Source: Clostridia bacterium
GTDB taxonomy: Bacteria; Bacillota; Clostridia; Oscillospirales; CAG-272
DNA: 52,001 nucleotides
Reading direction: 5' to 3'
Assembly (NCBI GenBank): GCA_017483305.1
Contig: JAFULC010000044.1
Location: forward strand, 75,865 to 127,865
A program made the position numbers and the translations under genes. Of the stretch, positions 24,584 through 40,258 are shown one piece after another. Within the stretch, counting starts at the first letter, position 1, and each line of letters starts with the position of its first letter. The notes beneath the pieces were generated by a model. The model made no database searches. It had not been told where the DNA came from and saw nothing but the letters and a program-made list of their open reading frames with translations.

Positions 24584-24683
24584 CTTTAAAACCCAAGCCA
24601 TAGGATCAATCTCTATCCTATGGGAAGTTTTTGGAAGGTCAAGGAAACCTTTTTCCCCAAAAGGTTTCCTTGCTCATCCCCTC
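24584..24683 (+). repeat. Interspersed palindromic repeat, copy A
   Basis: About 100 bp of a family also found at 33.0, 35.9 and 40.0-40.25 kb. In order: TTTAAAACCC, a 9-bp stem (CCATAGGAT / ATCCTATGG), AGTTTTTGGAAGGTCAAGG, and a long palindrome (AAGGAAACCTTTT / AAAAGGTTTCCTT, 24641-24671), then a C-rich end. No T-run follows, so it is not an ordinary terminator. Confidence 0.88.
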
Positions 24684-24701
24684 CGGAAAGGAAATCTTAC
24701 T

Positions 24702-25262
24702 ATGAAATTATTGATTGCATCGGATATACACGGAGACGCGGCGTGCTGTCGTGCCATGCTTGACGCGGCGGAGCGCGAATCTGTCGAAAGGATACTGCTT
24801 CTCGGCGATCTGCTTTATCACGGGCCGAGGAATGATCTGCCCCTGGGCTACGCGCCGAAGGAAGTGATCGAAATGCTCAACGCCGCAGCGGACAAGCTTA
24901 TTTGTGTCAGAGGCAACTGTGACACAGATGTGGATCAAATGGTGCTTAACTTCCCTATTCTTTCGGAGACGGCGTGGGTCTATGACGGCGAGGCAAAATT
25001 GAGCTTATTTATGTCTCACGGACATAAGTTTTCGCCCGAAAATCTGCCGCCTTTGCCGAGTGGAACGGTGTTTTTATACGGTCACACGCACGTGCTCGGA
25101 CTTAAAGAGGTGGGTGGCGTGATATGCATCAATCCGGGTTCGGTTAGCCTGCCGAAGAACAACAATCCAAAGACCTACGGAGTCTACGACGGTGGGGTTT
25201 TTGAGATCAAGGAGCTTGACGGAACGGTCGTTGAGCGTTATGATCTACGGAAAAACGCTTGA
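24702..25262 (+). CDS. yfcE: YfcE-type metallophosphoesterase (phosphodiesterase)
   Basis: A 186-residue cytoplasmic enzyme of the MJ0936/YfcE family. All metal-binding blocks are present in order: DIHGD, GDLLYHG, GNCD, SHGH and GHTH. Family members cleave phosphodiester bonds with Mn2+; the natural substrate is unclear. The interspersed repeat lies immediately upstream, and the ribosome site GGAAAGGAAA sits between the repeat and the ATG. It is probably expressed from the flavin reductase promoter by read-through. Confidence 0.95.
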   Translation: MKLLIASDIHGDAACCRAMLDAAERESVERILLLGDLLYHGPRNDLPLGYAPKEVIEMLNAAADKLICVRGNCDTDVDQMVLNFPILSETAWVYDGEAKLSLFMSHGHKFSPENLPPLPSGTVFLYGHTHVLGLKEVGGVICINPGSVSLPKNNNPKTYGVYDGGVFEIKELDGTVVERYDLRKNA

Positions 25263-25309
25263 TTTTGTTGCTTGTAACAGAAAATTTACAAAATTCGGTC
25301 TGTCTCCTC

Positions 25310-25338
25310 TTGAAAAATGATCGATTATGTTATATAAT
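25310..25338 (+). promoter_or_regulatory. Sigma-A promoter of efp
   Basis: TTGAAA, 17-bp spacer, TATAAT, about 50 nt before the efp start codon. Confidence 0.88.
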
Positions 25339-25392
25339 GAAATGTAAACTATGCACGACTTTATTTTGGTGCTTATTTGGAGGTAAACTTTT

Positions 25393-25950
25393 ATGGTAGT
25401 AGCCGGTGATTTTAAAAACGGTATAACTTTTGAAATGGATGGTAACGTTTATCAGGTTATCGAATTCCAGCACGTAAAACCCGGCAAGGGTGCGGCTTTC
25501 GTTCGTACAAAGCTTAAGAACGTTATTTCCGGTGCAGTTATCGAGAAAACTTTCAGCCCTACGGACAAGTATGAGAATGCTTATATCGAGAGAAAAGATA
25601 TGCAGTACTCCTACAACGATGGCGATCTTTACTATTTTATGGACATGGAGACCTTCGACATGCTTCCTCTTAACAGAGACAAGCTCGGCGATGCCTTCAA
25701 GTTCGTTAAGGAAGAAATGATGTGCAAGATCATTTCCTACAAGGGCAACGTATTCGGCGTTGAGGCTCCCACCTTCGTTGAGCTCGAGGTTACCGAGACC
25801 GATCCCGGTTTCGCAGGCAACACCGCAACCAACACCCTTAAGCCCGCAACTCTTGAGACCGGTGCCGTTATCAAGGTTCCGCTCTTCATCAACGTTGGCG
25901 ATATGCTTAAGATCGACACTCGTACGGGTGAATATCTGTCCCGTGCTTAA
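25393..25950 (+). CDS. efp: Translation elongation factor P
   Basis: A 185-residue protein with the three beta-barrel domains of EF-P, which relieves ribosome stalling at polyproline. The tip loop reads [10 protein letters not shown], with Lys32 at the position that is modified in other bacteria. The C-terminal signature [25 protein letters not shown] is complete. GGAGG lies 9 nt before the ATG. No epmA/epmB-type modification genes lie nearby. A hairpin terminator follows, then the CD1247-like gene. Confidence 0.98.
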
Positions 25951-25964
25951 TTTCTGAAAACAAT

Positions 25965-26008
25965 AAAACGGGAGGCTTTTGTACAAATCGTGCGCAAGCT
26001 CCCGTTTT
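25965..26008 (+). terminator. Probable terminator after efp
   Basis: A long stem AAAACGGGAG(G)CTT / AAGCTCCCGTTTT with one bulge and a 17-nt loop, followed by only four T. Termination may be partial, which would allow read-through into the next gene 42 nt away. Confidence 0.65.
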
Positions 26009-26049
26009 ATGCTATTATAGCAAAAAATTATAGAAAAGAGGATAATAAA

Positions 26050-26514
26050 ATGACACTTACTGAAAAGACTGCATACATCAAGGGCCTTTGCGAGGGTCTC
26101 GAATTCGACAAGAAGGATACCGCTGAGGCGAAGATCATCAAGGCGCTTCTCGATCTCTGCTCCGATATGGCTGAGGAGCTCTCCGAGCTTGAGGCTGACG
26201 TTGAGGACCTCTTCGATTACTGCGAGGAGCTCGACGAGGATCTCGGCGACGTTGAGGAGGTTCTTCTCGACGAGGACGAGGATGACGACGAGTGGGATGA
26301 CGAGGAATGCGACGGCGAGTGCGATGAGTGCGAGCTTTGCGGCGAATGCGAATACTGCGACGACGAGGACTATTTTGAGATAGTTTGCCCCTCTTGCGGT
26401 GAGACCGTTTGCTTCGACGAGTCGGTAAACGCTGAGGATCTTGCTTGCCCCGCTTGCGGCAGCGAGCTCGGTTGCATCGTTGACGAGGACGACGTAAACC
26501 CTGTTGAAGACTGA
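26050..26514 (+). CDS. CD1247-type acidic zinc-ribbon protein
   Basis: A 154-residue protein. The N-terminal helical part (TEKTAYIKGLCEGLEFD, then TAEAKIIKALLDLCSDM and a Glu-rich coiled coil to about 70) matches the CD1247 N-terminal domain known from Clostridioides. A C-terminal zinc ribbon follows (Cys113, Cys116, Cys133, Cys136). Between them is a very acidic stretch with six extra Cys at 87, 91, 94, 97, 100 and 103, an odd addition that could bind a second metal. The ATG at 26050 follows GAGGATAATAAA. Function is unknown. The last ~13 codons and following bases are duplicated 2.1 kb downstream (28598-28653). Confidence 0.9.
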   Translation: MTLTEKTAYIKGLCEGLEFDKKDTAEAKIIKALLDLCSDMAEELSELEADVEDLFDYCEELDEDLGDVEEVLLDEDEDDDEWDDEECDGECDECELCGECEYCDDEDYFEIVCPSCGETVCFDESVNAEDLACPACGSELGCIVDEDDVNPVED

Positions 26515-26529
26515 TTCGGATAACATATT
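26472..26529 (+). repeat. Direct repeat, left copy (3' end of the CD1247-type gene)
   Basis: 58 bp from within the last codons of the gene through its stop and the following TAACATATT. It matches 28598-28653 with one base change and a 2-bp indel. The pair brackets the XRE/AlbA_2 module. Confidence 0.93.
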
Positions 26530-26530
26530 T

Positions 26531-26577
26531 GAGCTGTCTTAATGCGTATCGTAACGCGTTTAAGACAGCTCTTTTTT
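26531..26577 (+). terminator. Rho-independent terminator after the CD1247-type gene
   Basis: A 12-bp stem (GAGCTGTCTTAA / TTAAGACAGCTC) with a 17-nt loop, then six T. It lies within the inserted segment, immediately after the left direct repeat, so the insertion brought a new terminator to the gene. Confidence 0.88.
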
Positions 26578-26740
26578 GCGTTTGACTATTGAATTTTCAA
26601 ACTAAATACCTATACGGGACGCAGGCGGTTTTGTCTGCGCCCTATCTATTTTATATGCACTCTTATTTTCATTAAAGTGTCAATGACAGCGCTTTTCGTT
26701 GTAAAATTCCTATTATCGCACGAATATTTTAACTTGCGCG

Positions 26741-26769
26741 TTGATTTTTTGCAAATTGTGTGTTATAAT
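26741..26769 (+). promoter_or_regulatory. Sigma-A promoter of the XRE-AlbA_2 pair
   Basis: TTGATT, 17-bp spacer, TATAAT, about 35 nt before the XRE start. Confidence 0.8.
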
Positions 26770-26803
26770 ATAAACTGTAATGATGTATTTTTTGAGGTGA
26801 CTT

Positions 26804-27019
26804 ATGGCTGCAAGTTATAAACCTTTATTCAAACTTCTCATCGACCGTAATATGAAGAAAAAGGAGCTCGCGGAGCGTGCAGGGCTTAGCCTTGCTACCA
26901 TTACGAAAATGGGCAAGGAGGGCACGGTTGTTACAACCGATGTTCTCGTAAAGATATGTGTAGCTCTGAGGTGTGAAATCGGGGATATTGTCGAGATCGT
27001 GCCCGATGAGAACGAATAA
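26804..27019 (+). CDS. XRE family HTH transcriptional regulator (small)
   Basis: A 71-residue single-domain Cro/CI-type helix-turn-helix: LIDRNMKKKELAERAGLSLATITKMGKEG, then TTDVLVKICVALRCEIGDIVEIV. This size is typical of plasmid- or phage-borne YozG-like regulators. GAGGTGA precedes the ATG. It is 15 nt upstream of the AlbA_2 gene, so it probably represses the pair. The location inside the bracketed insertion suggests acquisition with its partner. Confidence 0.93.
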   Translation: MAASYKPLFKLLIDRNMKKKELAERAGLSLATITKMGKEGTVVTTDVLVKICVALRCEIGDIVEIVPDENE

Positions 27020-27034
27020 TGTGGAGGTCTTACG

Positions 27035-28495
27035 ATGATTGATTTCAACAACATTGAAAAATACAAAGAAAACAACCGCATTGAAGCAAAAAAGGCAATT
27101 GGCGGTCTGCCCCGTAGCATTTGGGAAACCTACTCTGCGTTCGCTAATACGCTCGGCGGTATCATTCTGCTCGGTGTTGAGGAACACGCGGATAAGTCCT
27201 TGCACCCCGTTGACCTACCCGATCCCGAAAAGCTAATAAAGGACTTTCGGGATATTGTCAATAACGCGAACAAGGTTAGCGCCAATATTCTCTCCGACAA
27301 GGACGTAACCATTGAGAATATAGACGGCAAGCACATTGTGGCTATCCGTGTGCCTCGTGCACAGCGCAGCGATAAGCCCGTGTATATTGACGGCAACCCT
27401 CTTTCAGGAAGCTACCGCCGCAACGGCGAGGGTGACTACAAGTGTACTAAGGAAGAAGTGCATGCGATGATGCGCGATGCCGCAATAAAGACGCAGGATA
27501 TGCTCGTGCTTGAAAGTATGGAGCTTAACGCCTTCGATTACGATAGCGTGAAGCGTTACCGCATTCGTATGAAGACCTACCGTCCCGGTCACGTATGGGA
27601 GGAGCTTGAAGACGTAGAGTTTCTTTACAAGCTCGGCGCGGTTGGAAGATCGAGCGACGGTAAGATGCACCCCACCGCCGCAGGACTTTTGATGTTCGGC
27701 TATGAATATGAGATCGTAAAAGAATTTCCCACGTATTTCCTTGATTATCAGGAGCAATTTGATCCCAACACTCGCTGGACAGACCGAATAGTTTCCTCGT
27801 CGGGTGATTGGAGCGGAAACGTTTACGATTTCTATTTCCGCGTTTATAACAAGATTACGCAGGATATTAAAGTTCCGTTCAAGCTCGAGGGTGGCGACCG
27901 CATTGACGATACGCCCGTCCACAAAGCACTCAGAGAAGCTCTTGCCAATTGCTTGATAAACGCCGATTATTACGGCAGACAAGGTCTTGTCATAATCAAG
28001 AAAAAAGATGTTATTACGCTTTCCAATCCCGGCGGCTTCCGTATCGACGTGGAGGCGGCAAAGAGTGGCGGCGTTTCAGACCCTCGTAATAGTACGCTAA
28101 TCAAGATGTTCAACCTTATCGACGTAGGTGAGCGCGCAGGTAGTGGTATTCCGAATATTTTCAGCATTTGGAAAAAGCAAGGTTGGTCTGCCCCTGTTAT
28201 CAACGAGAGTTTTGAACCCGATAGAATCACTTTATCGCTTACTTTTGGAAAACCGAGCGATAAAAACCAAGCGATAAAATCAAGCGATAAGAAGCGAGCG
28301 ACAAAAACAATCGCGTATAGAGAAGCTATTGTAGTATATCTTACCGAAAACATTTCTGCCAAGTGTTCCGAGCTTTCCTCCCTTATCGGCATTAGTGATT
28401 CGAGAACAAGAGCTGTTCTGGGCAAGATGATCGAGGATGATATTCTCATTGCCGAGGGCGAAAACAGGAACAGAGTATATAAACTAAAAGCTTAG
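27035..28495 (+). CDS. AlbA_2 (Schlafen-type) domain protein with GHKL ATPase and winged-helix domains
   Basis: A 486-residue protein. The N-terminal AlbA_2 (Schlafen AlbA-like) domain (about 10-120) opens with NRIEAKKAIGGLPRSIWETYSAFANT and contains GGIILLGVEE. A GHKL-like ATP-binding domain follows (about 285-370; ALREALANCLINADYYG, LSNPGGFRI, RNSTLIKMF). The C-terminal 65 residues form a winged helix after a Lys-rich linker in which SDKK-like units recur. This architecture is common next to small XRE genes and is usually annotated as an ATP-binding or transcriptional regulatory protein. Some relatives sit in defence islands, but a role here is unproven. GGAGG precedes the start. Confidence 0.92.
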   Translation: MIDFNNIEKYKENNRIEAKKAIGGLPRSIWETYSAFANTLGGIILLGVEEHADKSLHPVDLPDPEKLIKDFRDIVNNANKVSANILSDKDVTIENIDGKHIVAIRVPRAQRSDKPVYIDGNPLSGSYRRNGEGDYKCTKEEVHAMMRDAAIKTQDMLVLESMELNAFDYDSVKRYRIRMKTYRPGHVWEELEDVEFLYKLGAVGRSSDGKMHPTAAGLLMFGYEYEIVKEFPTYFLDYQEQFDPNTRWTDRIVSSSGDWSGNVYDFYFRVYNKITQDIKVPFKLEGGDRIDDTPVHKALREALANCLINADYYGRQGLVIIKKKDVITLSNPGGFRIDVEAAKSGGVSDPRNSTLIKMFNLIDVGERAGSGIPNIFSIWKKQGWSAPVINESFEPDRITLSLTFGKPSDKNQAIKSSDKKRATKTIAYREAIVVYLTENISAKCSELSSLIGISDSRTRAVLGKMIEDDILIAEGENRNRVYKLKA

Positions 28496-28517
28496 AAATT
28501 TTTTAGAAGAAGTAAAA

Positions 28518-28640
28518 ATGGCTTCTATCATAGATACTTGTTACGATAATGGAACGGGTGATATTATGGAAGAATTGAAAAAGCGAAAAACACTCTATTG
28601 CATCGTTGACGAGGATGACGTAAACCCTGTTGAAGACTGA
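28518..28640 (+). pseudogene. 40-codon ORF ending in the duplicated tail of the CD1247-type protein
   Basis: An ATG at 28518 opens a 40-residue frame (a second ATG lies at 28566) whose last 13 residues, CIVDEDDVNPVED, equal the C-terminus of the 26050-26514 protein. The upstream part does not resemble that protein. Most likely it is the remnant of the original gene end, displaced when the XRE/AlbA_2 module arrived, now joined in frame to element DNA. A purine-rich AGAAGAAG lies upstream, so translation is possible but unproven. Confidence 0.6.
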
Positions 28641-28653
28641 TTCGTAACATATT
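28598..28653 (+). repeat. Direct repeat, right copy
   Basis: 56 bp matching 26472-26529 with one substitution and a 2-bp deletion after the stop codon. It is followed at once by a strong terminator, probably the original terminator of the CD1247-type gene. Confidence 0.93.
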
Positions 28654-28690
28654 AAAACGGGAGAAGGATACAATCCTTCTCCCGTTTTTT
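28654..28690. terminator. Bidirectional rho-independent terminator
   Basis: A perfect stem AAAACGGGAGAAGGAT / ATCCTTCTCCCGTTTT with an ACA loop and six T. It serves the plus-strand genes and the convergent glycosyltransferase gene. Confidence 0.93.
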
Positions 28691-28693
28691 ATT

Positions 28694-29713
28694 TTAATAG
28701 TATCTTACGATCTTATTGGAGATCGCGTAGAAAACACCCGTGAGCCATCTGCCGAAGGCGCCGGGGAGATTGGCGAAAACAAGGGGCGTGCGCCAACGGA
28801 AATAATTGCCGTATTTTTTGTCAAACGCCTTGCAATCCTCCCACATCTGCTTGAGATCCGCGTCGGTCTCCTTGCTCTTGTTGCCTCTGGTGATAAAGGT
28901 TGAAATGCCGAACATCATGAAAAGCTCGTGCTTCATATATCGGCGGAGCTTGCGCGATTTCAGATCGTCAAGGTGGCAGCTCTGAAAGCTCAGGACTGTG
29001 CTGAGCAGCTGATGCTTATATCTCTTTCTGAAAATGTCTCTCTGCACTGACTGTCCCTCTCTGCCGATGGTATAGCGGTAGAGGTCCTTGTTGAGATAAT
29101 ACATTTTCTCAACGTACGGCAGCGACAGACAGATCATATAGTTGTCCTCGTAGAAGGTGTGCTTCGGGAGCTCCTTGCCGCTCTTTTTCATGATCTCGGT
29201 GCGGAAGGTACAGCTGTGTATAGTCAGCATCTGGCGCAGGCGGAAACGACGGGTCTCCTCCCATGTGAATATTCTGTTTTCGGGCAGTGCGTTCTTATAG
29301 CAGATCGACTGGTCGCCGATGCCGTCCTCGTGGGCGTAAAAGTAGTTCGTGACGAAAAGATCCACGCCGCCCTGTGCCTCGCACTCCTCGAGCTTTTCGA
29401 TCATCAAGGGGAGATTCTCGTCAAGCACGTCGTCACTGTCAACGACCTTAAAGTATTTTCCCGTTGCTCTCTTAAGTCCCTGATTTATTCCCTCGCCATG
29501 ACCGCCGTTCTCCTGATGAACGACTCTTACGATCTCGGGATATTTTGCTACGTACTCGTCTGCGATAGCACCCGTGCCGTCCTTCGAGCCGTCGTTGATA
29601 ATGATTATCTCGATCTTCTCTCCGCCGACAAGCAGACTGTCTATACATTTGCGCATATAGCCCTCCGAGTTATAGCACGGAACGGTTACTGTAAGCAATT
29701 TTTCGTTACTCAT
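28694..29713 (-). CDS. Family 2 glycosyltransferase
   Basis: A 339-residue GT-A fold enzyme without membrane segments. The N-terminal domain has LTVTVPCYNSEGYMRKCIDS, IIINDGSKDGT and the nucleotide-sugar metal motif VDSDDVLDE. The C-terminal 100 residues are basic. GAGGTGA precedes the ATG, which lies 4 nt after the UDP-galactopyranose mutase stop. The pair points to a galactofuranose-containing surface glycan, and this enzyme could be the galactofuranosyl- or another sugar transferase; the acceptor is unknown. Confidence 0.93.
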   Translation of the reverse strand: MSNEKLLTVTVPCYNSEGYMRKCIDSLLVGGEKIEIIIINDGSKDGTGAIADEYVAKYPEIVRVVHQENGGHGEGINQGLKRATGKYFKVVDSDDVLDENLPLMIEKLEECEAQGGVDLFVTNYFYAHEDGIGDQSICYKNALPENRIFTWEETRRFRLRQMLTIHSCTFRTEIMKKSGKELPKHTFYEDNYMICLSLPYVEKMYYLNKDLYRYTIGREGQSVQRDIFRKRYKHQLLSTVLSFQSCHLDDLKSRKLRRYMKHELFMMFGISTFITRGNKSKETDADLKQMWEDCKAFDKKYGNYFRWRTPLVFANLPGAFGRWLTGVFYAISNKIVRYY

Positions 29714-29717
29714 AAAA

Positions 29718-30821
29718 TCACCTCAAAAGATTTTCGGACAGCTTCAATGCGGAAGCTATCACGGTATCCATGTCGTAATACTTGTATTCTCCGAGTCTGC
29801 CACCGAAGATGATTCCCTGCTCGGACTCGGCAAGCTCCTTATATTTCGCGTAAAGTGCGCCGTTTTTCTCGTCGTTTACGGGATAATATGGCTCGTCGCC
29901 GACCGTCCACTCCGAGCTGTACTCGCGGCTGATGACGGTCTTGGGCTGATCTCCGAACTCGAAGAATTTATGCTCAATAATTCTTGTCCAAGGGGTCTCT
30001 CTGTCGGTGTAATTGACAACGGCGTTGCCCTGGAAGCTCGGCTTATCCAACACCTCGGTCTCAAATCTTACCGAGCGGTATTCGAGTGCGCCCAGCTTAT
30101 AGCCGTAATACTCGTCGATAGCGCCCGTATAAACGACCGTTTCGGCAAGTGTGCAGAGCTCGTCCTTATTCTCAAGGAAATTAACTCCGAGTCTGACCTC
30201 GATGCCCTCGAGCATATTCTCGACCATTTTGGTATATCCGCCCTCGGCGATTCCCTGATATTTCGCGTTGAAGTAGTTATTATCAAAGGTAAATCTGCAG
30301 GGCAGGCGCTTGATTATGAAGGACGGAAGTGCCGTGCAGGGTCTTCCCCACTGCTTTTCGGTATATCCCTTTACAAGCTTTTCATAAATGTCCGTGCCGA
30401 CAAGCGATATCGCTTGCTCCTCGAGGTTTTTCGGCTCGGTTATTCCCGCCGCCGCTCTCTGCTCCTCGATCTTTGCCTGCGCCTGTTCGGGAGTTACGAC
30501 TCCCCACATCTTATTGAAGGTGTACATATTGAAGGGCAGACTGTAAAGCTCACCGTGAAAGTTTGCCACGGGAGAGTTGGTATAGCGGTTAAACTCCGCA
30601 AATCTGTTTACGTATTCCCAAACCCTCTTATCGTTGGTATGAAAGATGTGCGCGCCGTATTTGTGGACGTTTATTCCCTCCACAGCCTCGGTGTACACGT
30701 TGCCCGCGATATGCTCGCGGCGGTCTATAACAAGGACCTTTTTTCCTTTCTTCGTTGCCTGCTCTGCAAAAACCGCGCCGAACAGACCTGCGCCGACGAT
30801 AAGATAATCGTATTTTTTCAT
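29718..30821 (-). CDS. glf: UDP-galactopyranose mutase
   Basis: A 367-residue flavoenzyme that interconverts UDP-galactopyranose and UDP-galactofuranose. The FAD-binding GAGLFGAVFAEQ, IDRREHIAGNVYTE and KYGAHIFHTND are characteristic, as is YTEKQWGRPCTALP in the middle. The ATG at 30821 is 10 nt from AGGAGG; a TTG two codons upstream is closer to the site and cannot be excluded. It is first in an operon with the GT2 gene and has its own promoter, implying galactofuranose in the cell envelope. Confidence 0.97.
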   Translation of the reverse strand: MKKYDYLIVGAGLFGAVFAEQATKKGKKVLVIDRREHIAGNVYTEAVEGINVHKYGAHIFHTNDKRVWEYVNRFAEFNRYTNSPVANFHGELYSLPFNMYTFNKMWGVVTPEQAQAKIEEQRAAAGITEPKNLEEQAISLVGTDIYEKLVKGYTEKQWGRPCTALPSFIIKRLPCRFTFDNNYFNAKYQGIAEGGYTKMVENMLEGIEVRLGVNFLENKDELCTLAETVVYTGAIDEYYGYKLGALEYRSVRFETEVLDKPSFQGNAVVNYTDRETPWTRIIEHKFFEFGDQPKTVISREYSSEWTVGDEPYYPVNDEKNGALYAKYKELAESEQGIIFGGRLGEYKYYDMDTVIASALKLSENLLR

Positions 30822-30867
30822 TGGCAATAAGCCTCCTTATAGATCAACGACCTCACAGGCCATAGAT

Positions 30868-30896
30868 ATTATAGCATTTCAGAGATAAAAAAGCAA
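30868..30896 (-). promoter_or_regulatory. Sigma-A promoter of glf
   Basis: TTGCTT, 17-bp spacer, TATAAT on the minus strand, about 45 nt from the glf start. Confidence 0.75.
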
Positions 30897-30953
30897 TAGG
30901 GTCAACAGGAATTACCTTTAAAATTTGTTAATTAATTGTGACCAAACGCTTGA

Positions 30954-32975: not shown

Positions 32976-33008
32976 TTTGACTTGTCCTTTCTTTGTAAGT
33001 GGGAGAAG

Positions 33009-33094
33009 CGCAAGGGGAACTTTTGCAAAAGTTCCCCTTGACCCCTCAAAACTCCCCATAGGATAGAAATTAATTCTACGGTTTGGGCTTTGAG
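33009..33094 (-). repeat. Interspersed palindromic repeat, copy E (minus orientation)
   Basis: The same element as copies A-D, inverted. It has a perfect 30-bp palindrome (33011-33040; arms CAAGGGGAACTTTTG) whose sequence differs from that of copy C (AAGGAAACCTTTTTG) at paired positions, so the pairing is conserved while the bases change. The smaller stem is CCGTAG / CTATGG with a G-U pair. Confidence 0.88.
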
Positions 33095-33173
33095 ACGGTG
33101 GAGCTTGGGTGATAGGGTGAATGGAAAAGCTCGCCTGATTGGAGTTTTTGAAGATTCTTAAGTCGTCGGAGAC

Positions 33174-33263
33174 TTATCTCTTTTTCTTCTCTTTCTTTAT
33201 CCCGAATATTGTTCTGAGCAACGGGGCTAAAAAGCCCGGCGAGCGCACAAGTATTATTTTCAT
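33174..33263 (-). CDS. spoVM: Stage V sporulation protein M (SpoVM), 29 residues
   Basis: A tiny gene with GGAGG 5 nt before its ATG. The peptide begins MKIILVRSPGFLAPLLRTIF and ends in GIKKEKKKR, the layout of SpoVM: a short amphipathic helix containing a Pro, flanked by positive charge. SpoVM recognises the convex forespore membrane and anchors SpoIVA and the spore coat. The position directly after thiN and rsgA is that of spoVM in B. subtilis, which strongly supports the call. It should be expressed in the mother cell during sporulation; an inverted repeat and a CATATAAT box lie just upstream. Confidence 0.9.
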   Translation of the reverse strand: MKIILVRSPGFLAPLLRTIFGIKKEKKKR

Positions 33264-33275
33264 AACGACCTCCGA

Positions 33276-33301
33276 ATATAATGTGTTCATCAACATTATA
33301 T
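33276..33301 (-). promoter_or_regulatory. Inverted repeat upstream of spoVM
   Basis: A perfect 9-bp dyad ATATAATGT / ACATTATAT with an 8-nt centre, 13 nt before the spoVM start. On the minus strand it includes CATATAAT, similar to a sigma-E -10 box, but no well-spaced -35 is clear. It could be an operator or part of a sporulation promoter. Confidence 0.5.
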
Positions 33302-33329
33302 GCTGAAGGAGGGCTACTGACCGCAAAAA

Positions 33330-33953: not shown

Positions 33954-33959
33954 AAGTAA

Positions 33960-34880
33960 TTATTTATCCCATTTGTGTTTGTTTTTAAGGGTCTCATAGA
34001 GAGAGACGTAGCTCTCGTGGCGGCTCTTTGCTATCTCGCCCCGCTTTACCGCATCAACGATAGCGCAGCCTTCCTCTCTCAGATGCGTGCATTTGGTGTA
34101 TTTGCACTCGCCTATGCGCTCGTTTATCTCGGGGAAGCAGAGCGGAAGCTGCTCGAGATCGAAGAAGTCGAATCTTTCGAAATCAAGCATCGAAAAGCCG
34201 GGGGTGTCGGCGAGGTAAAGGCTCTCTCGGATCGGATACAGCGTGACCGCGCGGGTCGTGTGTCTTCCTCTGGCGGTCTTTCGGCTGACGTCGCCCGTGC
34301 CGAGCTCGAGACTCGGGAAAAGCTTGTTCATCAGCGTGGATTTCCCAACTCCCGACGCGCCCGCAAACGCGGCGATATTGCCGCCGAGAGAGGTGTTTAT
34401 ATATTCTTGGATCTCATCGACTCCCTCGCCCGTGGCGCAGGAGAGAACGAAGACCTTATATCCCGCTTTTTCGTAGGTCTCCTTTATAAGCGCGGCATAT
34501 TCCCTATCAAGCTCGCACTTTCCGACCACAATCACGGGAGTGACGTTATTGTGCTCGAGGATCGCGGTGAGCTTATCGGTCATATCAAGCATAGGCTTCG
34601 GGGAGCTTGCCGCCATCGTAACAAACACCGTGTCAAGATTGGCAAGCGGCGGACGGATGAGCGAATTTTTGCGCTCGCAAATCTCCTCGATCACCGCATT
34701 CTGCTCGCCGTCCGACACGTCGAGAGTGACGTCGTCTCCAACCATAGGCGACAGGTTGCCGTGTCTGAAGGCGCCTCTGGCACGGCAGGATATTTCTCTA
34801 TATCCCTCGCCGTCCTTTACTCTGACGGTGTAAAGTCCGCCCAGAAGTCCGATTATTTTTCCTTTAATCTTCAGATCCAT
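33960..34880 (-). CDS. rsgA: Ribosome small subunit-dependent GTPase A
   Basis: A 306-residue circularly permuted GTPase that helps 30S subunit maturation. Order: N-terminal OB fold (GDDVTLDVSDGEQNAVIEEI), G4 (VVGKCEL in place of NKxD), G1 AGASGVGKSTLMN, G3 DTPGF, and a C-terminal zinc knuckle (CKYTKCTHLREEGC). The ATG at 34880 is preceded by TGGAG, which belongs to a repeated hairpin leader element (34886-34948). It sits in the position of cpgA/rsgA in the Bacillus locus. Confidence 0.97.
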   Translation of the reverse strand: MDLKIKGKIIGLLGGLYTVRVKDGEGYREISCRARGAFRHGNLSPMVGDDVTLDVSDGEQNAVIEEICERKNSLIRPPLANLDTVFVTMAASSPKPMLDMTDKLTAILEHNNVTPVIVVGKCELDREYAALIKETYEKAGYKVFVLSCATGEGVDEIQEYINTSLGGNIAAFAGASGVGKSTLMNKLFPSLELGTGDVSRKTARGRHTTRAVTLYPIRESLYLADTPGFSMLDFERFDFFDLEQLPLCFPEINERIGECKYTKCTHLREEGCAIVDAVKRGEIAKSRHESYVSLYETLKNKHKWDK

Positions 34881-34885
34881 TAAAT

Positions 34886-34948
34886 CTCCATTCCGCCGCC
34901 ATTGGCGGCTCACATAGCCATCGGTGAATTTTGTCCACAGGAAATTAG
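34886..34948 (-). repeat. Shine-Dalgarno-bearing hairpin leader repeat, copy at rsgA
   Basis: On the minus strand: a small hairpin region (CCTGTGG), AAAATTCACCGATGGCTATG, a stem GCCGCC / GGCGGC, four bases, TGGAG, then the rsgA start. The same order recurs at rpoZ and twice before cysS. Confidence 0.8.
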
Positions 34949-35006
34949 CGAAGCTATCTCTATGCCGCGCGTTAACATTTCCTATTGAACAGAAATAACC
35001 TTCACG

Positions 35007-35816
35007 CTATTCTCCGTTTTCGTTGTCTCCGCCGTCAATATATCTGCCGAACGGATGTAATTGGTCTTTTTTATCTTCTTTTCCCGTGCTTACGGTGATG
35101 TTTATTTTGCTATGATATCTGACGTAGCTGCCTGCATCAAGGCTTTGTGAGATCACAAGACCCTCACCAACCGTATCGGACGGCTCGTAAAGAATTTCTC
35201 CCACAAGCAAGCCGTCGGAAAGCAGCTTGGCGCAAGCCGAGCCCTGATCAAGCCCAGTGAGATCACTCACCCTGACCGAGCCCTTGACATGCTTTCGGCA
35301 GACGAAGAGCGTGACCTTGTCGCCCTGCTTTATTCTCGCACCCGCGTCGGGCGAGGTATATAGCACGCGGTCGAGCTCGGCATTTTCATCGTATACCGAA
35401 ACGATCCTGATCTGTGCACCGAGCGCTCGAAGCATTGCTGCCGCCTCGGTGTACGTGACGTTGCATAGGTCGGGGAGCTTGCTTTCCTCCGCGCCCATAC
35501 TGACAATAAGCTTTACGGTGTATAATTCGCCATCGGCGACCTTTCGCCTCGCGCCCGAATAGGGCTCTTGCGAAATTATCTCTCCCTCGGGCACGCTGCC
35601 CGAATAGACAAGCTCGCTTTCAAAGCGTATTCGGTCGTGTGGCTCTAATTCTGCATATTTTCGCCCGACGAATGACGGAATTATAATTGTTTCGCGGTCT
35701 CTTTTGGTGCTGGCAAACAGCGAAAAAAAGACGCAGATTGCGGTTGTTGCAAGCACCGCTGTCGAAATAAAAGCTCCGAAAAGCAGCCTTTTGGACGAGA
35801 TTTCTTTGTTTTTCAC
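35007..35816 (-). CDS. Membrane-anchored PASTA-domain protein without kinase domain
   Basis: A 269-residue protein: short cytoplasmic N-terminus, one membrane helix (about 11-35), three PASTA domains (about 42-108, 112-176, 179-245) and a hydrophilic tail. PASTA domains bind muropeptides or lipid II in PrkC/PknB-type kinases. In B. subtilis prkC sits at this place, between rlmN/prpC and rsgA; here the kinase domain and the phosphatase prpC are both missing. The GTG start has AGGGGAA upstream, and the stretch before it is filled by an interspersed repeat, not by kinase coding sequence. It may be a wall-sensing adaptor or a relic. Confidence 0.9.
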   Translation of the reverse strand: MKNKEISSKRLLFGAFISTAVLATTAICVFFSLFASTKRDRETIIIPSFVGRKYAELEPHDRIRFESELVYSGSVPEGEIISQEPYSGARRKVADGELYTVKLIVSMGAEESKLPDLCNVTYTEAAAMLRALGAQIRIVSVYDENAELDRVLYTSPDAGARIKQGDKVTLFVCRKHVKGSVRVSDLTGLDQGSACAKLLSDGLLVGEILYEPSDTVGEGLVISQSLDAGSYVRYHSKINITVSTGKEDKKDQLHPFGRYIDGGDNENGE

Positions 35817-35866
35817 GGCAATTCCCCTTTTGGTTGATATGTAAAGGGGCTCGTTGCCTCCGGCGG

Positions 35867-36034
35867 CTTAAAACCTTTTTGGAAAAAAGGTTTTAAAAAT
35901 TCCAAAAACTTTCAATAAGGGTTTTTGAGGGTGTTTTTTGTACTATATCATTTTAAAACCCAAACCGTAGGATCTATCCCTATCCTACGGGAAGTTTTTG
36001 AAGGTCAAGGAAGCTTTTTTCAAAAAGTTTCCTT
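35867..36034. repeat. Interspersed palindromic repeat, copy B (composite)
   Basis: About 168 bp. A left palindrome (TTAAAACCTTTTT / AAAAAAGGTTTTAA), then a middle with TCCAAAAACTTTCAATAAGG and TTTTAAAACCCAAACC, then the stem CCGTAGGAT / ATCCTACGG (35965-35990), then the right palindrome (36007-36034). The left and right ends are related in inverted orientation. The rlmN stop codon (36020-36022) lies inside the right palindrome. Confidence 0.88.
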
Positions 36035-37105
36035 GCGCTCCTCCACCGCACCCTTCGCATCCCCCTCCGCGTCCTCGCGTCTGAGCTGACCGCAGGAGGC
36101 ATTGATATCCGAGCCGAGAGTACGTCGGACGGTCGCTCTGATGCCGTGGCTTTCAAGAGTTGCGGCAAAGGCTTTGACGGCGGCTTTGTCCGAGCTTCTG
36201 AAGCCCGACTCGGTGACCTCGTTTACGGGGATGAGGTTGACGTGTATTGGCATAGTCTCGCTTCTTGTGCGAAGCTTGGCATTAAGTGTATTTGCAAGGT
36301 GCAGGGCGTTTTGCTTAGTGTCATTCTTCCCTGCGATGAGCGTGTATTCAAAAGAGATGCGGCGCTGGGTCGATCTGTAATATTCTCGACAGGCATCAAG
36401 CAGCTCGTCCACGCCCCATGCCTTATTTACGGGCATGATCTCCGAGCGCGTGCTATCGTCCGACGCGTGAAGCGAGACCGAGAGCGTGATTGGAAGATCG
36501 AGCTTGGCAAGCTCGTATATTTTCGGCACGACGCCGCAGGTCGAAAGTGAGATATGGCGGTAGCCGACGTTGACACCCTCGGGAAGATTTACGAGACGTA
36601 AAAACTTCACGACGTTATCGTAGTTATCGAGCGGCTCACCGATTCCCATCATGACGATATTGGATATTCTGATGACGAGATCCTTCTGCGCCGCTATAAG
36701 CTGACCGAGTATTTCGCCCGATTCAAGATCGCGAACTCTGCCCGCCACGGTAGACGCGCAGAATTTGCAGCCCATTCGGCAGCCGACCTGCGAGGAAACG
36801 CAGATCGTGTAGCCGTGCTCGTATTTCATAACGACCGACTCGATACAGTTGCCGTCTGACAGCTCGAAGAGGTATTTTACCGTGCCGTCGAGCTTTGAGG
36901 TCAGCTTACGCTTGACCTTTGGCAGACTGCAATCGAGAGCATTATGTAATTTTTGCTTGGTCACCTTGCCCACGTTGGTCATCTCGTCAAGCGAGATGCA
37001 CTTGTGAAGCTGGGTAAATATCTGTCCTGCCCGATAGGAAGGCTCGCCGAGCGATACCATCAGCTCCTTGAGCTCCTCGGGCGTGTATGATAATATATTT
37101 TTCAT
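36020..37105 (-). CDS. rlmN: 23S rRNA (adenine-2503-C2)-methyltransferase
   Basis: A 361-residue radical SAM enzyme that methylates A2503 of 23S rRNA and A37 of some tRNAs. The cluster motif CRMGCKFC, GIGEPLDNYDNV, SLHASDD and the C-terminal VRRTLGSDINASCGQL with the conserved Cys are all present. The ATG at 37105 is preferred over a TTG three codons earlier. The final residues (ERKETF and stop) are encoded by the interspersed repeat, so the natural end has been replaced; the change is past the conserved core and should not harm activity. It lies 11 nt after rsmB. Confidence 0.97.
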   Translation of the reverse strand: MKNILSYTPEELKELMVSLGEPSYRAGQIFTQLHKCISLDEMTNVGKVTKQKLHNALDCSLPKVKRKLTSKLDGTVKYLFELSDGNCIESVVMKYEHGYTICVSSQVGCRMGCKFCASTVAGRVRDLESGEILGQLIAAQKDLVIRISNIVMMGIGEPLDNYDNVVKFLRLVNLPEGVNVGYRHISLSTCGVVPKIYELAKLDLPITLSVSLHASDDSTRSEIMPVNKAWGVDELLDACREYYRSTQRRISFEYTLIAGKNDTKQNALHLANTLNAKLRTRSETMPIHVNLIPVNEVTESGFRSSDKAAVKAFAATLESHGIRATVRRTLGSDINASCGQLRREDAEGDAKGAVEERKETF

Positions 37106-37116
37106 AGCTTTCAACT

Positions 37117-38436
37117 TTATTTTCTTGTGAATTTTGAGACGAAAAATCCGTCTGTACCGTCCTTATCGGGCGAAAGCGAGAGCATTCCGCGCTCTGAGCG
37201 GACGCCTCCGACTTCAAAATCGCAGATCTCAAACTCGGGGTGAGCCGAGAGGAATTTTTCAACGTTTTCTTCGTTCTCCTCAGGTAACACGGTGCAGGTC
37301 GAGTAGACCAGCACGCCGCCCTTTTTGACGTATCGCGAGCAATTTTCGAGGATCGCGAGCTGAATTTCGGGAAGCCTTGCAAAGTCGGCGATGCTTTTGT
37401 ATCTTATCTCGGGCTTCTTTGCAATTACACCGAGTCCCGAGCAGGGCACGTCGCAAAGAACTCTGTCGGCTTGCCCTTCGAGCTTCTCGTCAAAGCTTCT
37501 GCCGTCTCGCACCGATGCGGTGATCACGTCGATGCCGAGACGCTCTGCGCTCTTGTCGATAAGCTTCAGCTTGCTTTCGTGAAGGTCGAAGGAAAGGATG
37601 TTTCCCGTGTTCTCCATTTTTATTGCCGAGCCGAAGGATTTTGAGCCCGGGCAGGAGCAAGCGTCGATCATAAGCATATTTTTTTGCGCGTCAAGCGCTT
37701 CTACACAAATCTGCGATGCCTCGTCCTGAACGAAAAACAAGCCCTCATCAAAGCCGGGAAGGGCGGTAAAGCTCACATTTTCGAGCAATATCGCGTTTTC
37801 GAGGCGCTCCGACAAGGTGTACTTGATCCCCTTTTCGTCGAGCATCAGAGCATATTTTTCGCGGCTTATCTTCAGCGTGTTGATGCGCAGAGTCAGCTTG
37901 GGCGGACGGTTGAAGATCTCAAAAATTTCTTTTGCTCGGTCGTATCCGTAGATCTCCAAAAATCTGCGGCAAACATCCTCGGGAAAGGAGTAACGAAGCG
38001 ACAAGTGTGCGATAGGATCGGATTTTTCGTCCGGGAAAAAGCTTTCGACTCCCTCGCCGTCGCGTCGCCTTAAAAACGAGCGCATGATCGCGTTGACGAA
38101 GCCTCGGCTTCTTCTCGGCGCCATATTTACAGTCTCGTTGACCGCCGCGTAGTCCGGGATCTTATCAAGGCAGAAAAGCTGATATATGCCCATTCGGAGC
38201 AGCGCTCTCGTGTCGGCATCGATCCTTTGCGAGTTAGCGGCAAGCTTGTCGATGATATGATCGAGCGTGAGCTGTCTTTCGGTCACGCCCATAACGGTTG
38301 CCGTGACAAGCCCCTTGTCAACGTCGGACAGCTCACTTTGAGTCAGCGCGCGGTTGATCGCAATATTTGAATAAGTCGCATGTTTCCCTGCGTCCTTCAA
38401 TATTTTGAAGGCAAGCGCTCTCGCGTGGTCTGCCAT
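37117..38436 (-). CDS. rsmB: 16S rRNA (cytosine-967-C5)-methyltransferase
   Basis: A 439-residue enzyme. The N-terminal NusB-like RNA-binding domain (about 1-140) is followed by a SAM methyltransferase with CSCPGSKSFGSA, the catalytic Cys in DVPCSGLG and the second Cys in VYSTCTVLPEENEENV. It methylates C967 of 16S rRNA. AAAGGA precedes the ATG. Order fmt-rsmB-rlmN matches the conserved Bacillota cluster. Confidence 0.97.
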   Translation of the reverse strand: MADHARALAFKILKDAGKHATYSNIAINRALTQSELSDVDKGLVTATVMGVTERQLTLDHIIDKLAANSQRIDADTRALLRMGIYQLFCLDKIPDYAAVNETVNMAPRRSRGFVNAIMRSFLRRRDGEGVESFFPDEKSDPIAHLSLRYSFPEDVCRRFLEIYGYDRAKEIFEIFNRPPKLTLRINTLKISREKYALMLDEKGIKYTLSERLENAILLENVSFTALPGFDEGLFFVQDEASQICVEALDAQKNMLMIDACSCPGSKSFGSAIKMENTGNILSFDLHESKLKLIDKSAERLGIDVITASVRDGRSFDEKLEGQADRVLCDVPCSGLGVIAKKPEIRYKSIADFARLPEIQLAILENCSRYVKKGGVLVYSTCTVLPEENEENVEKFLSAHPEFEICDFEVGGVRSERGMLSLSPDKDGTDGFFVSKFTRK

Positions 38437-38503
38437 ATCAAAAATCCTTTCTGTAAAATAGTTTGCTTCAAAATGTCAAAATAAATCGATGAAATATTTT
38501 GAA

Positions 38504-39439
38504 TTATGAAAGCAGATCTCCCGCTGCTATCTTTCTGCCGCGGACGAAATCTGCGGCGCTCATTTTGCCCTTGCCCTCGGGAACAACGGTCAGAAGCGAC
38601 AAAATCCCCTTGCCGCAAGCGACCTTGATGTCGTCATCGACCGAAATGACCGTACCAGCCGGCTCACCGTTTGTCTTGTTGTCATCAACAACGCGACTTG
38701 CAACGACCTTGAGCAGCTTTCCGTCGGGTGTATGGGTGAAGGAGAGCGGAATGGGCGAAAGGCCGCGGATGAGGTTATGAAGCTCTCTCGCGGGGCGCGA
38801 AAAATCGAGCAAGCAGTCGCTTTTTTCGATCTTCGCGGCATAGGTTGCAAGGCTATCGTCCTGCTTTTCGGGGATGATCTCTCCTTTTTCTATCTTTTCA
38901 ACGGTTTCTATCAAAAGCTTGGCGCCGCAGTCGGCAAGGCGGTCGTGTATATCCTCAAAATTATCATTTTCGCCGATCTCGACCTCTGCTTTCAGCAGCA
39001 TATCGCCCGTGTCAAGTCCTGCCGCCATAAGCATTGTCGTAATGCCCGTGGTCTGCTTTCCGTCGATTATCGCTCTTTGCATCGGCGCCGCTCCTCTGTA
39101 TTCGGGCAGAAGCGAGCCGTGAACGTTCACACAACCGTATTTGGGATAATCGAGCACGTTCTGCGGCAAAATCTTACCAAAAGCAACGACAACTATCAGC
39201 TCGGGATCAAGCTCTGCAAGCGTTCCTGCAAACTCCTCTCCCTTAAGCGTGCTCGGCTGATATACGGGTATATTCTGCTCGAGCGCGTAGACCTTGATGG
39301 GCGGAGGAGTCAGGTGATGTCCTCTGCCCTTTGGCGTATCTATCTTGGTTACAACTCCCACGATCTCGTGTCCGCTCTCGCAAAGTGCGCGCAGAGTCGG
39401 CAGAGCGAAATCAGGGGTTCCCATAAATAAAATTCTCAT
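38504..39439 (-). CDS. fmt: Methionyl-tRNA formyltransferase
   Basis: A 311-residue enzyme that formylates initiator Met-tRNA with 10-formyl-THF. It begins MRILFMGTPDFALPTL and carries the formyltransferase motif HGSLLPEYRGAAPMQRAI and the catalytic Asp region GLDTGDML; a C-terminal OB-like domain follows. It starts 19 nt after def, its partner in N-terminal formyl-Met handling, and both depend on folate supply, which folT-folC elsewhere in the window provides. Confidence 0.97.
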   Translation of the reverse strand: MRILFMGTPDFALPTLRALCESGHEIVGVVTKIDTPKGRGHHLTPPPIKVYALEQNIPVYQPSTLKGEEFAGTLAELDPELIVVVAFGKILPQNVLDYPKYGCVNVHGSLLPEYRGAAPMQRAIIDGKQTTGITTMLMAAGLDTGDMLLKAEVEIGENDNFEDIHDRLADCGAKLLIETVEKIEKGEIIPEKQDDSLATYAAKIEKSDCLLDFSRPARELHNLIRGLSPIPLSFTHTPDGKLLKVVASRVVDDNKTNGEPAGTVISVDDDIKVACGKGILSLLTVVPEGKGKMSAADFVRGRKIAAGDLLS

Positions 39440-39458
39440 AAATTCAAATGACCTCGTG

Positions 39459-39935
39459 TTATTCTAATTCCTCGATCTCCTCGCGGGTCAGCATTCTCTC
39501 GGCTACGTCGGGATAAAGCTTGCCGTCAAGATGGTCAAGCTCGTGGCAGAAGCAACGCGCCAAAAGTCCAGAGCCGCTGTAATCAACGGTCTCGCCATGA
39601 CGGTTGGTTGCTCTTACGGTCACGTGCATCGGGCGCTTTACTATTCCCCACTGTCCCGGCAGCGAAAGGCAGCCCTCCATTCCCTCCTGCTCGCCTGCAA
39701 ACGCGATTATCTTCGGGTTGATCAGCTCGAGCACGTTGCCGTCCTCGACCTCGATTACTACGATTCGACGCAAAATGCCGACCTGAGGACCCGCAAGGCC
39801 AACGCCTCCCGCGTCCCTCATCGTATCAACCATATCGTCAAGCAGAGTCAGAACTCTGGGGGTGATTTTGTCTACAGGGCGGCAAACCTTACGTAATGTA
39901 TCGTCGCCTACTTTTACTATCTTTAATTTTGCCAT
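39459..39935 (-). CDS. def: Peptide deformylase
   Basis: A 158-residue metalloenzyme that removes the formyl group from nascent proteins. All three motifs are present: GGVGLAGPQVG, EGCLSLPG with the metal Cys, and HELDHLDG with two metal His. The ATG at 39935 has AAAGGAG upstream; a longer frame runs into the repeat-filled spacer and is not credible. Between def and priA lie two copies of the interspersed repeat. Confidence 0.97.
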   Translation of the reverse strand: MAKLKIVKVGDDTLRKVCRPVDKITPRVLTLLDDMVDTMRDAGGVGLAGPQVGILRRIVVIEVEDGNVLELINPKIIAFAGEQEGMEGCLSLPGQWGIVKRPMHVTVRATNRHGETVDYSGSGLLARCFCHELDHLDGKLYPDVAERMLTREEIEELE

Positions 39936-39977
39936 TGCTTTCTCCTTTCTTATTCGCAGGGCTCCACCCTGCACCCG

Positions 39978-40110
39978 CCAGAACCTTTTTGGAAAAAAGG
40001 TTCTGGACTCCAAAAACTTTCGATAAGGGTTTTTGGGGGTGTGATTTTTGTGCTATATCATTTTAAAATCTAAACCGTGGATTTATTTCTTTCCTATGGG
40101 GATTTTTGAT
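39978..40110 (+). repeat. Interspersed palindromic repeat, copy D (partly decayed)
   Basis: It begins with a palindrome (CCAGAACCTTTTT / AAAAAAGGTTCTGG, 39978-40006), continues with ACTCCAAAAACTTTCGATAA and a TTTTAAAATCTAAACC segment, and ends in a degenerate right half lacking the long right palindrome. The left half matches that of copy B. Confidence 0.82.
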
Positions 40111-40149
40111 AGGTCGCTTTATATAAAGGTCTTTTTGGCGTTAGAATTT

Positions 40150-40258
40150 AAACTATATCTTTTTAAAACCCAAACCGTAGAACCTAACTCTATCCTATGG
40201 GGAGTTTTTGGAAGGTCAAGGAAACCTTTTTGCAAAAAGGTTTCCTTGCGCGTCCCCT
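40150..40258 (+). repeat. Interspersed palindromic repeat, copy C
   Basis: A right-half copy in tandem with copy D: TTTTAAAACCCAAACCGTAG, a stem pairing CCGTAG with CTATGG (one G-U), then GGAGTTTTTGGAAGGTC and a perfect 30-bp palindrome (40218-40247). It ends in a C-rich stretch just past the priA stop. Confidence 0.88.

Follow-up and report, generated by a model that had tools for sequence, protein, structure and literature searches.

Intergenic repeats in the window, the whole 52,001-nucleotide stretch of a Clostridia genome that was analysed, are members of a genome-wide family in which dozens of intergenic gaps carry a hairpin-ended repeat. We give about even odds (probability roughly 0.5) to the reading that this family is an old, modular, interspersed palindromic repeat of a gut Clostridia genus (Oscillospiraceae-like) that is inherited in place, has its hairpins rewritten whole and acts as gene-border punctuation. 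It is filed here as a new, BOX/BIME-like modular repeat with a putative function.

Modular anatomy of the repeat

A full element consists of hairpin HP1, a central domain closed by pairing between CCAAAAACTT and AAGTTTTTGG, and hairpin HP2. The copies have in common TTTTAAAACCCAAACC, a small stem around CCRTAG (24598-24623 and 35965-35990), AAGTTTTTGGAAGG and a near-perfect terminal palindrome whose arms differ from copy to copy; the apex and motif are constant, and the outer stems vary yet remain paired. The end hairpins form outward pairs in inverted orientation (for example, 35868-36035), giving the terminal inverted repeats expected of MITEs. The features of the window are as follows.

24585..24672, + strand: copy A, central half (16-mer, small stem 24598-24623, AAGTTTTTGG motif) and HP2-type hairpin 24640-24672
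33011..33094, - strand: copy B, HP2-type hairpin 33011-33040, motif, small stem and 16-mer; polarity reverse of usual
33141..33162, + strand: remnant of the second end of copy B, GGAGTTTTTGAAGATTCTTAAG; hairpin present in G009 and G011 but missing here
35856..35867, unstranded: sHP, small GC palindrome GCCTCCGGCGGC, between copy C HP1 and the start of the downstream - strand gene
35868..35896, - strand: copy C hairpin HP1, TTAAAACC..GGTTTTAA
35900..36000, unstranded: copy C central domain, closed by CCAAAAACTT/AAGTTTTTGG pairing, with small stem 35965-35990 inside
36006..36035, + strand: copy C hairpin HP2, CAAGGAAGC..GTTTCCTTG; covers the last 16 bases of ORF 36020-37114 (- strand)
39956..39972, unstranded: sHP GCAGGGCTCCACCCTGC, between element D/E HP1 and the start of the - strand gene with ORF end 39459
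39978..40006, - strand: element D/E hairpin HP1, CCAGAACC..GGTTCTGG
40009..40149, + strand: element D/E first central module (D), degenerate; the HP2 place reads GGTCGCTTTATATAAAGGTC
40150..40215, + strand: element D/E second central module (E)
40217..40248, + strand: element D/E hairpin HP2, CAAGGAAACCTTTTTGCAAAAAGGTTTCCTTG; 31 nt from the end of - strand ORF 40280-42766

All five copies reported in the first-pass annotation are present, as are their common blocks, the inverted relationship of left half to right half, the paired arm differences between copies and the G-U variants of the small central stem; D and E, however, form one composite element with a doubled centre rather than two separate copies. 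The copies are intergenic, as had been described, except where HP2 of C runs into an ORF end. The number of central modules varies, with one in C, two in D/E and a longer array at the D/E slot in the related genome G011. A rearrangement breakpoint at D/E in G009 and G011 was considered; it is not supported for G011, whose fetched contig ends fall within the tandem array, and the right-hand contig of G009 at this slot runs into unrelated coding sequence. No second hairpin was seen in copy A, which sits between two + strand genes. The second end hairpin of copy B is present in G009 and G011 and absent from the source genome (G000) and G004, apparently having been lost between CTTAAG repeats.

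Six folds of copies and part-copies have z-scores between -3.6 and -5.5, and for each of them 0 of 200 shuffles reached the same stability. Alignment A2, with unit ends corrected, contains 14 of 15 units and leaves out L013m. Neither the element in the window nor the D/E region had an Rfam 15 match at the gathering cut-off, in line with the earlier remark that no named family was recognised, and a literature search reaching few subscription journals recognised no published name. The only Rfam 15 match in the window at this cut-off is a THF riboswitch at 18902-19088. Phage similarity of 33960-38436 was sought by megablast and none was found.

A genome-wide and genus-wide family

The 2.0 Mb source genome contains 26 exact matches to the grammar of the element, against 0 for a reversed-pattern control. 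Further copies were also recovered by a covariance-model search, as the first-pass annotation had proposed, in 43 rows representing 42 places at E<=1e-4 among the 150 of 1822 candidates scored. Among the genomes compared, which are mostly metagenome assemblies with simple ORFs as gene calls, the model, scoring 150 candidates in each genome, matched at E<=0.001 in 10 of 12 genomes of the genus, in two of six other genomes of the family (one match apiece) and in none of 11 other genomes of the order. Copy number across the genus is uneven, from 0 to 71 model matches with the same number of candidates scored, and a looser grammar is patchily distributed across the order, matching in 42 of 245 genomes. 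Among 16 stretches from a genome pattern scan, 11 were inspected; the hairpin is present in six of the seven Clostridia stretches and interrupted in the seventh (L212), and the matches in two Desulfobacterota and two Saprospiraceae, with no palindrome after them, were judged to be chance.

The association of the hairpin with the 8-mer AGTTTTTG is not due to chance, because a hairpin comes next in 33 of 63 places in the 334 kb fetched (largely around units), compared with 68 of 3000 random positions in the same sequence; five permuted 8-mers have a hairpin next to them in 0 of 95 places. The overlapping 8-mers GTTTTTGA (20/58) and AAGTTTTT (41/71) occupy AGTTTTTG sites and are unusable as controls. 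By eye, the AGTTTTTG motif seemed able to pair with the loop of the hairpin; this was rejected, with no covariation and a full match in 18 of 92 cases against a shuffled mean of 19.0. At slots 6 and 11 the spacer and the 3' flank looked able to form an outer stem, which did not rise above shuffles either in 131 units (p 0.54 for mean run, 0.52 for runs >=5) or in 42 HP2-like units (p 0.39 and 0.22, respectively).

Proposed inheritance at gene borders

The elements are usually ordered from stop codon through HP2, centre, HP1 and a small GC hairpin to the next start, with copies A and B running in reverse (in A, HP2 lies towards the start). Counted once per slot, and with classes defined after the flanks had been seen, HP1-type hairpins are start-facing in 16 slots and stop-facing in 2, while HP2-type hairpins are start-facing in 5 and stop-facing in 16 (Fisher p = 7e-5). 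Another 32 of the 75 slots are of neither type; where these have an ORF boundary, they divide 11 versus 11. As part of the preferred reading, the elements in the transcript would serve as gene-border punctuation, with HP2 behind the stop codon possibly acting as a 3' end block and HP1 and the small GC hairpin standing as punctuation ahead of the ribosome site.

The frequent placement of HP2 close behind a stop codon is also what intrinsic terminators of unusual form would predict, and in copies A and C the small stem of the centre has a terminator-like score on both strands. The end hairpins, however, lack a T-tract. The absence of a T-run had been noted for all copies, which is not wholly right, as this small stem is followed by GAAGTTTTTG, a weak terminator-like match. 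A canonical terminator-like site lies nearby at 28654-28688, and the terminator-like matches of the region (25) about equal the shuffle mean (22.6). We consider this reading highly improbable.

Comparison with sister species indicates that the elements are old, because 7 of the 11 units compared in G008, a species with flank identity of 70-83% (one flank 92%), occupy gene slots in which the source genome has a unit too. Shared slots account for 2 of 5 compared units in G005, 14 of 18 in G011 and 6 of 6 in G009. The choice of slots was centred on high-scoring units (in G008, 11 stretches for the 37 model matches; in G011, 18 for 71; in G009, 6 for 70; and in G005, 4 for 48 plus one further place), so missing hairpins are under-counted in these comparisons. 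Hairpins are nevertheless missing in some sisters at B, C and set 7, so single hairpins are not essential. Given that the compared hairpins differ between G008 and G000, some of this sharing could reflect hot spots of insertion.

These observations bear on the suggestion of a MITE- or REP-like composite, in which a non-autonomous element (MITE/REPIN-like) would be moved in trans by a transposase recognising the end hairpins. The family is indeed dispersed, composite and palindromic, and its inverted, hairpin-forming end units, uneven copy number in the genus, patchy distribution of the looser grammar, presence or absence at orthologous gaps (including set 6, with gaps lacking the element judged by eye) and a single new stem shared by two slots in both G009 and G011 are consistent with mobility. 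On the other hand, the REP-associated tyrosine transposase (RAYT) raised with that suggestion did not appear, since a search with PF01797 (Y1, IS200/RAYT) gave 0 matches in G000 (97% complete), G008, G009 and G011. The matches in G002, G005 and G010 (above cut-off) and G004 (below) have no convincing adjoining unit (best 12.3 bits), and the single filled/empty comparison, at set 6 with partly diverged flanks, showed no target duplication. The long residence of the elements at orthologous gene slots argues against active MITE jumping, and we regard a mobile element as an unlikely account of the family overall. Under the preferred reading, copies would have dispersed long ago and would now be mostly inherited in place.

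Hairpins change as blocks

The covariation is real. Across 81 rows, 97.5% of cells are paired and 13 of 14 pairs have changed on both sides; the 1100 cells include 10 G-U, 27 unpaired and 251 changed on both sides. The covariation score is 0.58, compared with 0.18 in shuffles and <=0.25 when slid, in a test that is partly circular, as the model picked and aligned the matches and opposite-strand readings of the same palindromes are included. Such covariation, together with polarity relative to transcription, stable folds and the G-U variants of the small central stem, would fit a structured RNA element whose base pairing is kept by selection through ordinary compensatory mutation, akin to the selection on folded RNA or cruciform DNA that the first-pass annotation drew from the paired changes.

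The changes between close species do not bear out that argument. Orthologous hairpin comparisons in the close clade, those inside one slot not being independent, comprised 43 identical, 6 single changes, 0 isolated doubles and 10 blocks in 8 slots. A block has two or more pairs changed, and the spacer changed in 10 of 10 blocks against 0 of 6 singles, which argues that the hairpin is replaced as a unit. Next to the changed hairpin of slot 6, the 31 bases that make up centre and motif show a difference at one base. Because the paired changes come as blocks with no isolated double, selection on folded RNA is not a necessary reading, and whole-hairpin replacement or template switching fits better. 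With so few G-U cells, hairpins absent from some sister species and a partly circular test also weighing against it, a structured RNA maintained by stepwise compensation is rather improbable.

A further account holds that replication template switching makes the stems and keeps them perfect, the elements being neutral. Multi-base paired changes are described as a template-switching signature in PMC8794818, and loops occur as reverse complements at slots 14 (ggg/ccc) and 43 (ggt/acc). Neutrality leaves unexplained the polarity, the retention of slots and the strong bias of the loops towards one strand (pyrimidine in 103, purine in 5 and mixed or none in 38 of 146 units, some of them opposite-strand readings of single palindromes); moreover, for five-pair blocks in which the spacer has changed, the other arm does not suffice as a source, and no source was traced. 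We consider this account quite improbable.

A donor copy for the new hairpins was sought and found at a second place for only 4 of 17 module-genome entries; the other 13 occur at one place only in the fetched sequence, which gives no general support to copying from another resident copy. Slots 6 and 23, which have an identical new stem and spacer in both G009 and G011, provide one case for such copying. One stem checked genome-wide matched once in G009 and once in G011, with no match in 10 other genomes; the second copy in G009/G011 has a longer T-run. In the reading that we prefer, single hairpins would be exchanged or rewritten as whole palindromes, by replication template switching or recombination with another copy, which would leave the arms complementary without stepwise compensation.

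Covariation is commonly held to be the best sign of a functional RNA, and in the orthologous hairpins of these sister species strong covariation arises from block changes without isolated compensatory steps. This set is ready for testing template switching against compensatory selection, and it counsels caution where RNAs are sought by covariation among repeat families. In this little-studied group of gut bacteria, the family also appears to mark the borders of genes. Only with low confidence do we extend the picture to gene-border elements throughout this order of Clostridia, with positions long inherited, end hairpins rewritten as perfect palindromes in single events, covariation without stepwise compensation and a punctuating role in transcripts; if true, the elements would constitute a natural, many-copy record of hairpin rewriting.

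Comparison with known repeat systems

In anatomy and behaviour the family is likened to BOX elements and to BIMEs, the latter being placed beside REPs and REPINs. REPs and REPINs, as described in PMC3733652 and PMC3116915, are likewise inverted palindrome pairs with a spacer, intergenic, near gene 3' ends and sometimes overlapping an ORF end, and REPINs show compensatory changes; in REPINs, however, it is the spacer that varies between invariant ends, the opposite of the situation here. The present family also differs in having no RAYT found and no constant GTAG/CGTC foot: among 130 distinct units, 1 has GTAG in the last 8 spacer bases and 1 in the first 8 flank bases, and 14 have CGTC in the flank and 0 in the spacer. 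IS200/IS605-derived ends similarly have hairpins at both ends, but no Y1 transposase was found in the source genome, and those of its relatives lack a convincing unit. SPRITE, as outlined in PMC3049150, is also a short hairpin repeat of a Gram-positive bacterium in which target duplication is not established, although its stem is followed by a long T-rich tract that the end hairpins here lack.

BOX of Streptococcus pneumoniae, as described in PMC3049150, is short and intergenic, with a predicted RNA fold, and is found in few species, slow to move today and MITE-like. It has modular ends and a centre of variable copy number, an arrangement that is also found here. BOX has terminal inverted repeats and target duplications, the latter not seen in the one comparison made for this family, at set 6, with partly diverged flanks; here, comparing by description only, the outer stems vary while the apex and motif are constant.

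Anatomy and folding of the element

All five copies reported in the first-pass annotation are present in the window, and each is built from a unit comprising a motif around (G/A)AAGTTTTTG, a short and mostly purine spacer, and a hairpin with the apex TTTTT..AAAAA, the outer stem of which varies from copy to copy. Two outward-oriented units, HP1 and HP2, flank a centre in the full element (35868-36035; 39978-40248). The name HP1 is given to units with a small GC hairpin behind them (such as GGGGCAGAGCCCC, GCAGGGTGGAGCCCTGC or CCGTCGGAGAC) and HP2 to those with a pyrimidine tract there. The count of five separate copies needs revision, since a single element contains both D and E as central modules; at this slot, that is, the orthologous gene border, the related genome G011 carries a longer tandem array of the central module.

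18902-19088, minus strand: THF riboswitch (Rfam, 66.1 bits)
24585-24672: copy A
33011-33094: copy B
35868-36035: copy C, full element
36020-37114, minus strand: ORF call
39978-40248: copies D and E, full element

When copy C is folded as RNA, HP1 forms an independent hairpin and the central domain is closed by motif-motif pairing, CCAAAAACTT with AAGTTTTTGG, enclosing the small CCRTAG stem; HP2 forms an independent hairpin when the opposite strand is folded. Six folds, covering copies A to E or portions of them, gave z-scores of -3.6 to -5.5; for each, none of 200 shuffles reached the same stability. The G-U tolerance proposed for the small central stem is seen in B, D and E and in orthologues of C. 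The ORF call at 36020-37114 extends into HP2 of copy C, with its stop codon within the hairpin apex. Because its portion below about 36065 (36020-36065) lacks conservation in the relatives read, the element may have lengthened this protein.

Copy number and distribution

A covariance-model search of the source genome (G000; 2.01 Mb, 63 contigs) recovered further copies, as the family described in the first-pass annotation would predict. The model, R1, built from 14 units, returned at least 103 rows at E<=1 and, among them, at least 43 (at least 42 places) at E<=1e-4; these are lower bounds because 150 of 1822 candidates were scored, and many weak rows are the opposite strand of the same palindrome. 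The same genome has 26 matches to the grammar AGTTTTTG-N3-33-CTTTTT-N0-8-AAAAAG and none to the reversed control. In sequence mostly around units, a hairpin follows AGTTTTTG in 33 of 63 places and five permuted 8-mers in 0 of 95.

With 150 candidates scored per genome, 10 of the 12 genomes examined in the genus, G000 included, have R1 matches at E<=0.001 (7 to 71 each), with none in G003 and G007; so do two of six genomes from the rest of the family (one match each) and 0 of 11 from the rest of the order. Across 245 genomes of the order, a looser grammar matched in 42, about 277 times by hand sum vs about 20 for the reversed control. These matches cluster in a few genera of several families, have genus-typical stems and may be kin of the window's family. 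Among stretches of named genomes with the window-type motif, 12 of 16 are Oscillospiraceae or Clostridia metagenome assemblies; the hairpin is present in six of the seven of these 12 that were read. Several such assemblies derive from goat and roe deer gut.

Residence at gene slots

Higher-scoring units were compared by their flanks with loci of G000. A slot also holding a G000 unit was found for 14 of 18 units in G011, 6 of 6 in G009, 2 of 5 in G005 and 7 of 11 in G008, where flanks are 70-83% identical (one, 92%). The gap of copy B holds the element in the close clade (G000, G004, G009, G011) and a differently armed one in G008; none was seen there in G001, G002, G003, G006, G007 or G010, and G005 has unit-like hairpins past the next small gene. 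At the D/E gap, the G008 element likewise differs in its arms, and none was seen in G001, G002, G003, G005, G006 or G007. For the C gap, compared in G008, G001, G002, G005, G006 and G007, no element was seen. In one set of aligned orthologous gaps (set 6), an entire element separates the stop codon from the ribosome site in G009 and G011, and G000 has nothing; no target duplication is visible in this single comparison, the flanks of which have partly diverged.

A second interspersed family (CTCCACTCTGCCGCCAGCGGCGGCACAAATAGTTATCGTTGAATTTTGCC) lies at 34886-34944, 46687-46745 and 46801-46859 of the window, 75-90% identical to its reference copy. On G000 contig C50 (stretch L144), arrays in which GTGATAT precedes short palindromes whose stems differ occupy about 11325-11560 and 15745-15950, the latter filling a gene gap where G009 and G011 have an HP1 unit. 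L023, L041, L042 and about 2208-2547 of L144 contain a repeat of ~300 bp whose ends resemble TTGGGTTCTAAC / GTTAGAACCCAAA and which precedes a hairpin with the element's apex type; at the L144 place it is present in G000 and absent from G009 and G011. At the right end of L114 (G009 contig C21), unrelated coding sequence runs directly into half an element hairpin, reflecting either a genuine junction or an assembly error at the repeat.

Covariation and replacement of end hairpins

The claim that the hairpin arms change together between copies holds. In alignment A3 (101 matches, 81 distinct rows), 97.5% of 1100 cells are paired, 10 of the 1100 being G-U, and 13 of 14 pairs show both-sided changes (251 cells). 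The covariation score of 0.58, vs 0.184 for shuffled and at most 0.247 for slid alignments, is inflated in magnitude because the alignment was fitted to structure and includes opposite-strand readings. The units themselves clearly show many different near-perfect stems.

Among 146 units, 43 slots hold units in at least two genomes. Arms were compared outward from the apex at the shift giving most identity, with several non-independent comparisons per slot. Within the close clade, 43 comparisons are identical, six show single-arm changes only, none shows one isolated double change, and 10 (eight slots) have both-arm changes at two or more pairs; more distant comparisons comprise two identical, zero single-arm only, two isolated double and 25 block changes. 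All 10 block comparisons, and none of the six single-arm ones, show a difference within the last seven spacer bases. At slot 6, spacer and five stem pairs differ between G000 and G009/G011, and the 31 adjoining bases of centre and motif differ at one position. Slots 6 and 23 carry an identical new stem and spacer, in G009 as well as G011. Of 17 changed stems, 13 occur at one place and four at two in the covered part of their own genome. Loops are pyrimidine in 103 of the 146 units, purine in five and mixed or absent in 38; two slots have loops that are reverse complements of each other between sisters. Some hairpins present in sisters are missing, namely B in G000 and G004, C in G004 and set 7 in G000, apparently lost between short repeats (AGTTTTT for set 7). 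Set 7 (L138, about 13850-14040; L139, about 13760-13990) has an HP1-type hairpin, its stem interrupted by other sequence.

Polarity relative to genes

HP1 units face an own-strand start codon 33 times and an opposing stop five times; HP2 units are start-facing eight times and stop-facing 27 times, and the remaining units, which fit neither type, split 18 to 15 (40 of 146 units have no ORF boundary in range). Counted once per slot (75 slots, 14 without a boundary and 32 of neither type), the start-facing to stop-facing ratios are 16:2, 5:16 and 11:11, respectively, with Fisher p = 7e-5 for HP1 vs HP2. A transcript would thus usually run from stop through HP2, centre, HP1, small GC hairpin and ribosome site to start. 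Some exceptions are errors of simple gene calls (for example, L007 and L142, where a start directly follows); copies A and B are true exceptions.

Interpretation and comparison with known systems

We read the repeat as mostly static, modular, polar and intergenic, with hairpins replaced as units. At roughly even odds (about 0.5), it is a BOX/BIME-like family that would have spread long ago by transposition and would now be inherited in place, its stems possibly rewritten via template switching or recombination, and its elements tolerated or perhaps used as transcript punctuation. The data show the anatomy, the copy number, the sharing of slots, the polarity, the block changes, the missing hairpins and the tandem centre; transposition in the past, the way stems are rewritten and a punctuation role are inferred.

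Multi-base paired changes are the signature ascribed to template switching in PMC8794818, and the likeness here lies in the pattern of change. In REPINs, as portrayed in PMC3116915, the ends are invariant and it is the spacer that varies; the window's family shows the opposite pattern. The suggested REP-associated tyrosine transposase did not materialize: a PF01797 search found none in G000, G008, G009 or G011. Rfam gave no match for the element above gathering. Tagged REPs, as described in PMC3733652, share a location near the 3' ends of genes, but the window's family lacks their constant GTAG or CGTC tag (beside two and 14 of 130 units, respectively). BOX elements are modular and slow-moving, as the window's family is, but have target duplications as a feature, according to PMC3049150; both likeness and difference are drawn from description rather than sequence. 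We file the family as a modular intergenic repeat outside REPIN, BOX and tagged REP, set apart from BOX by description.
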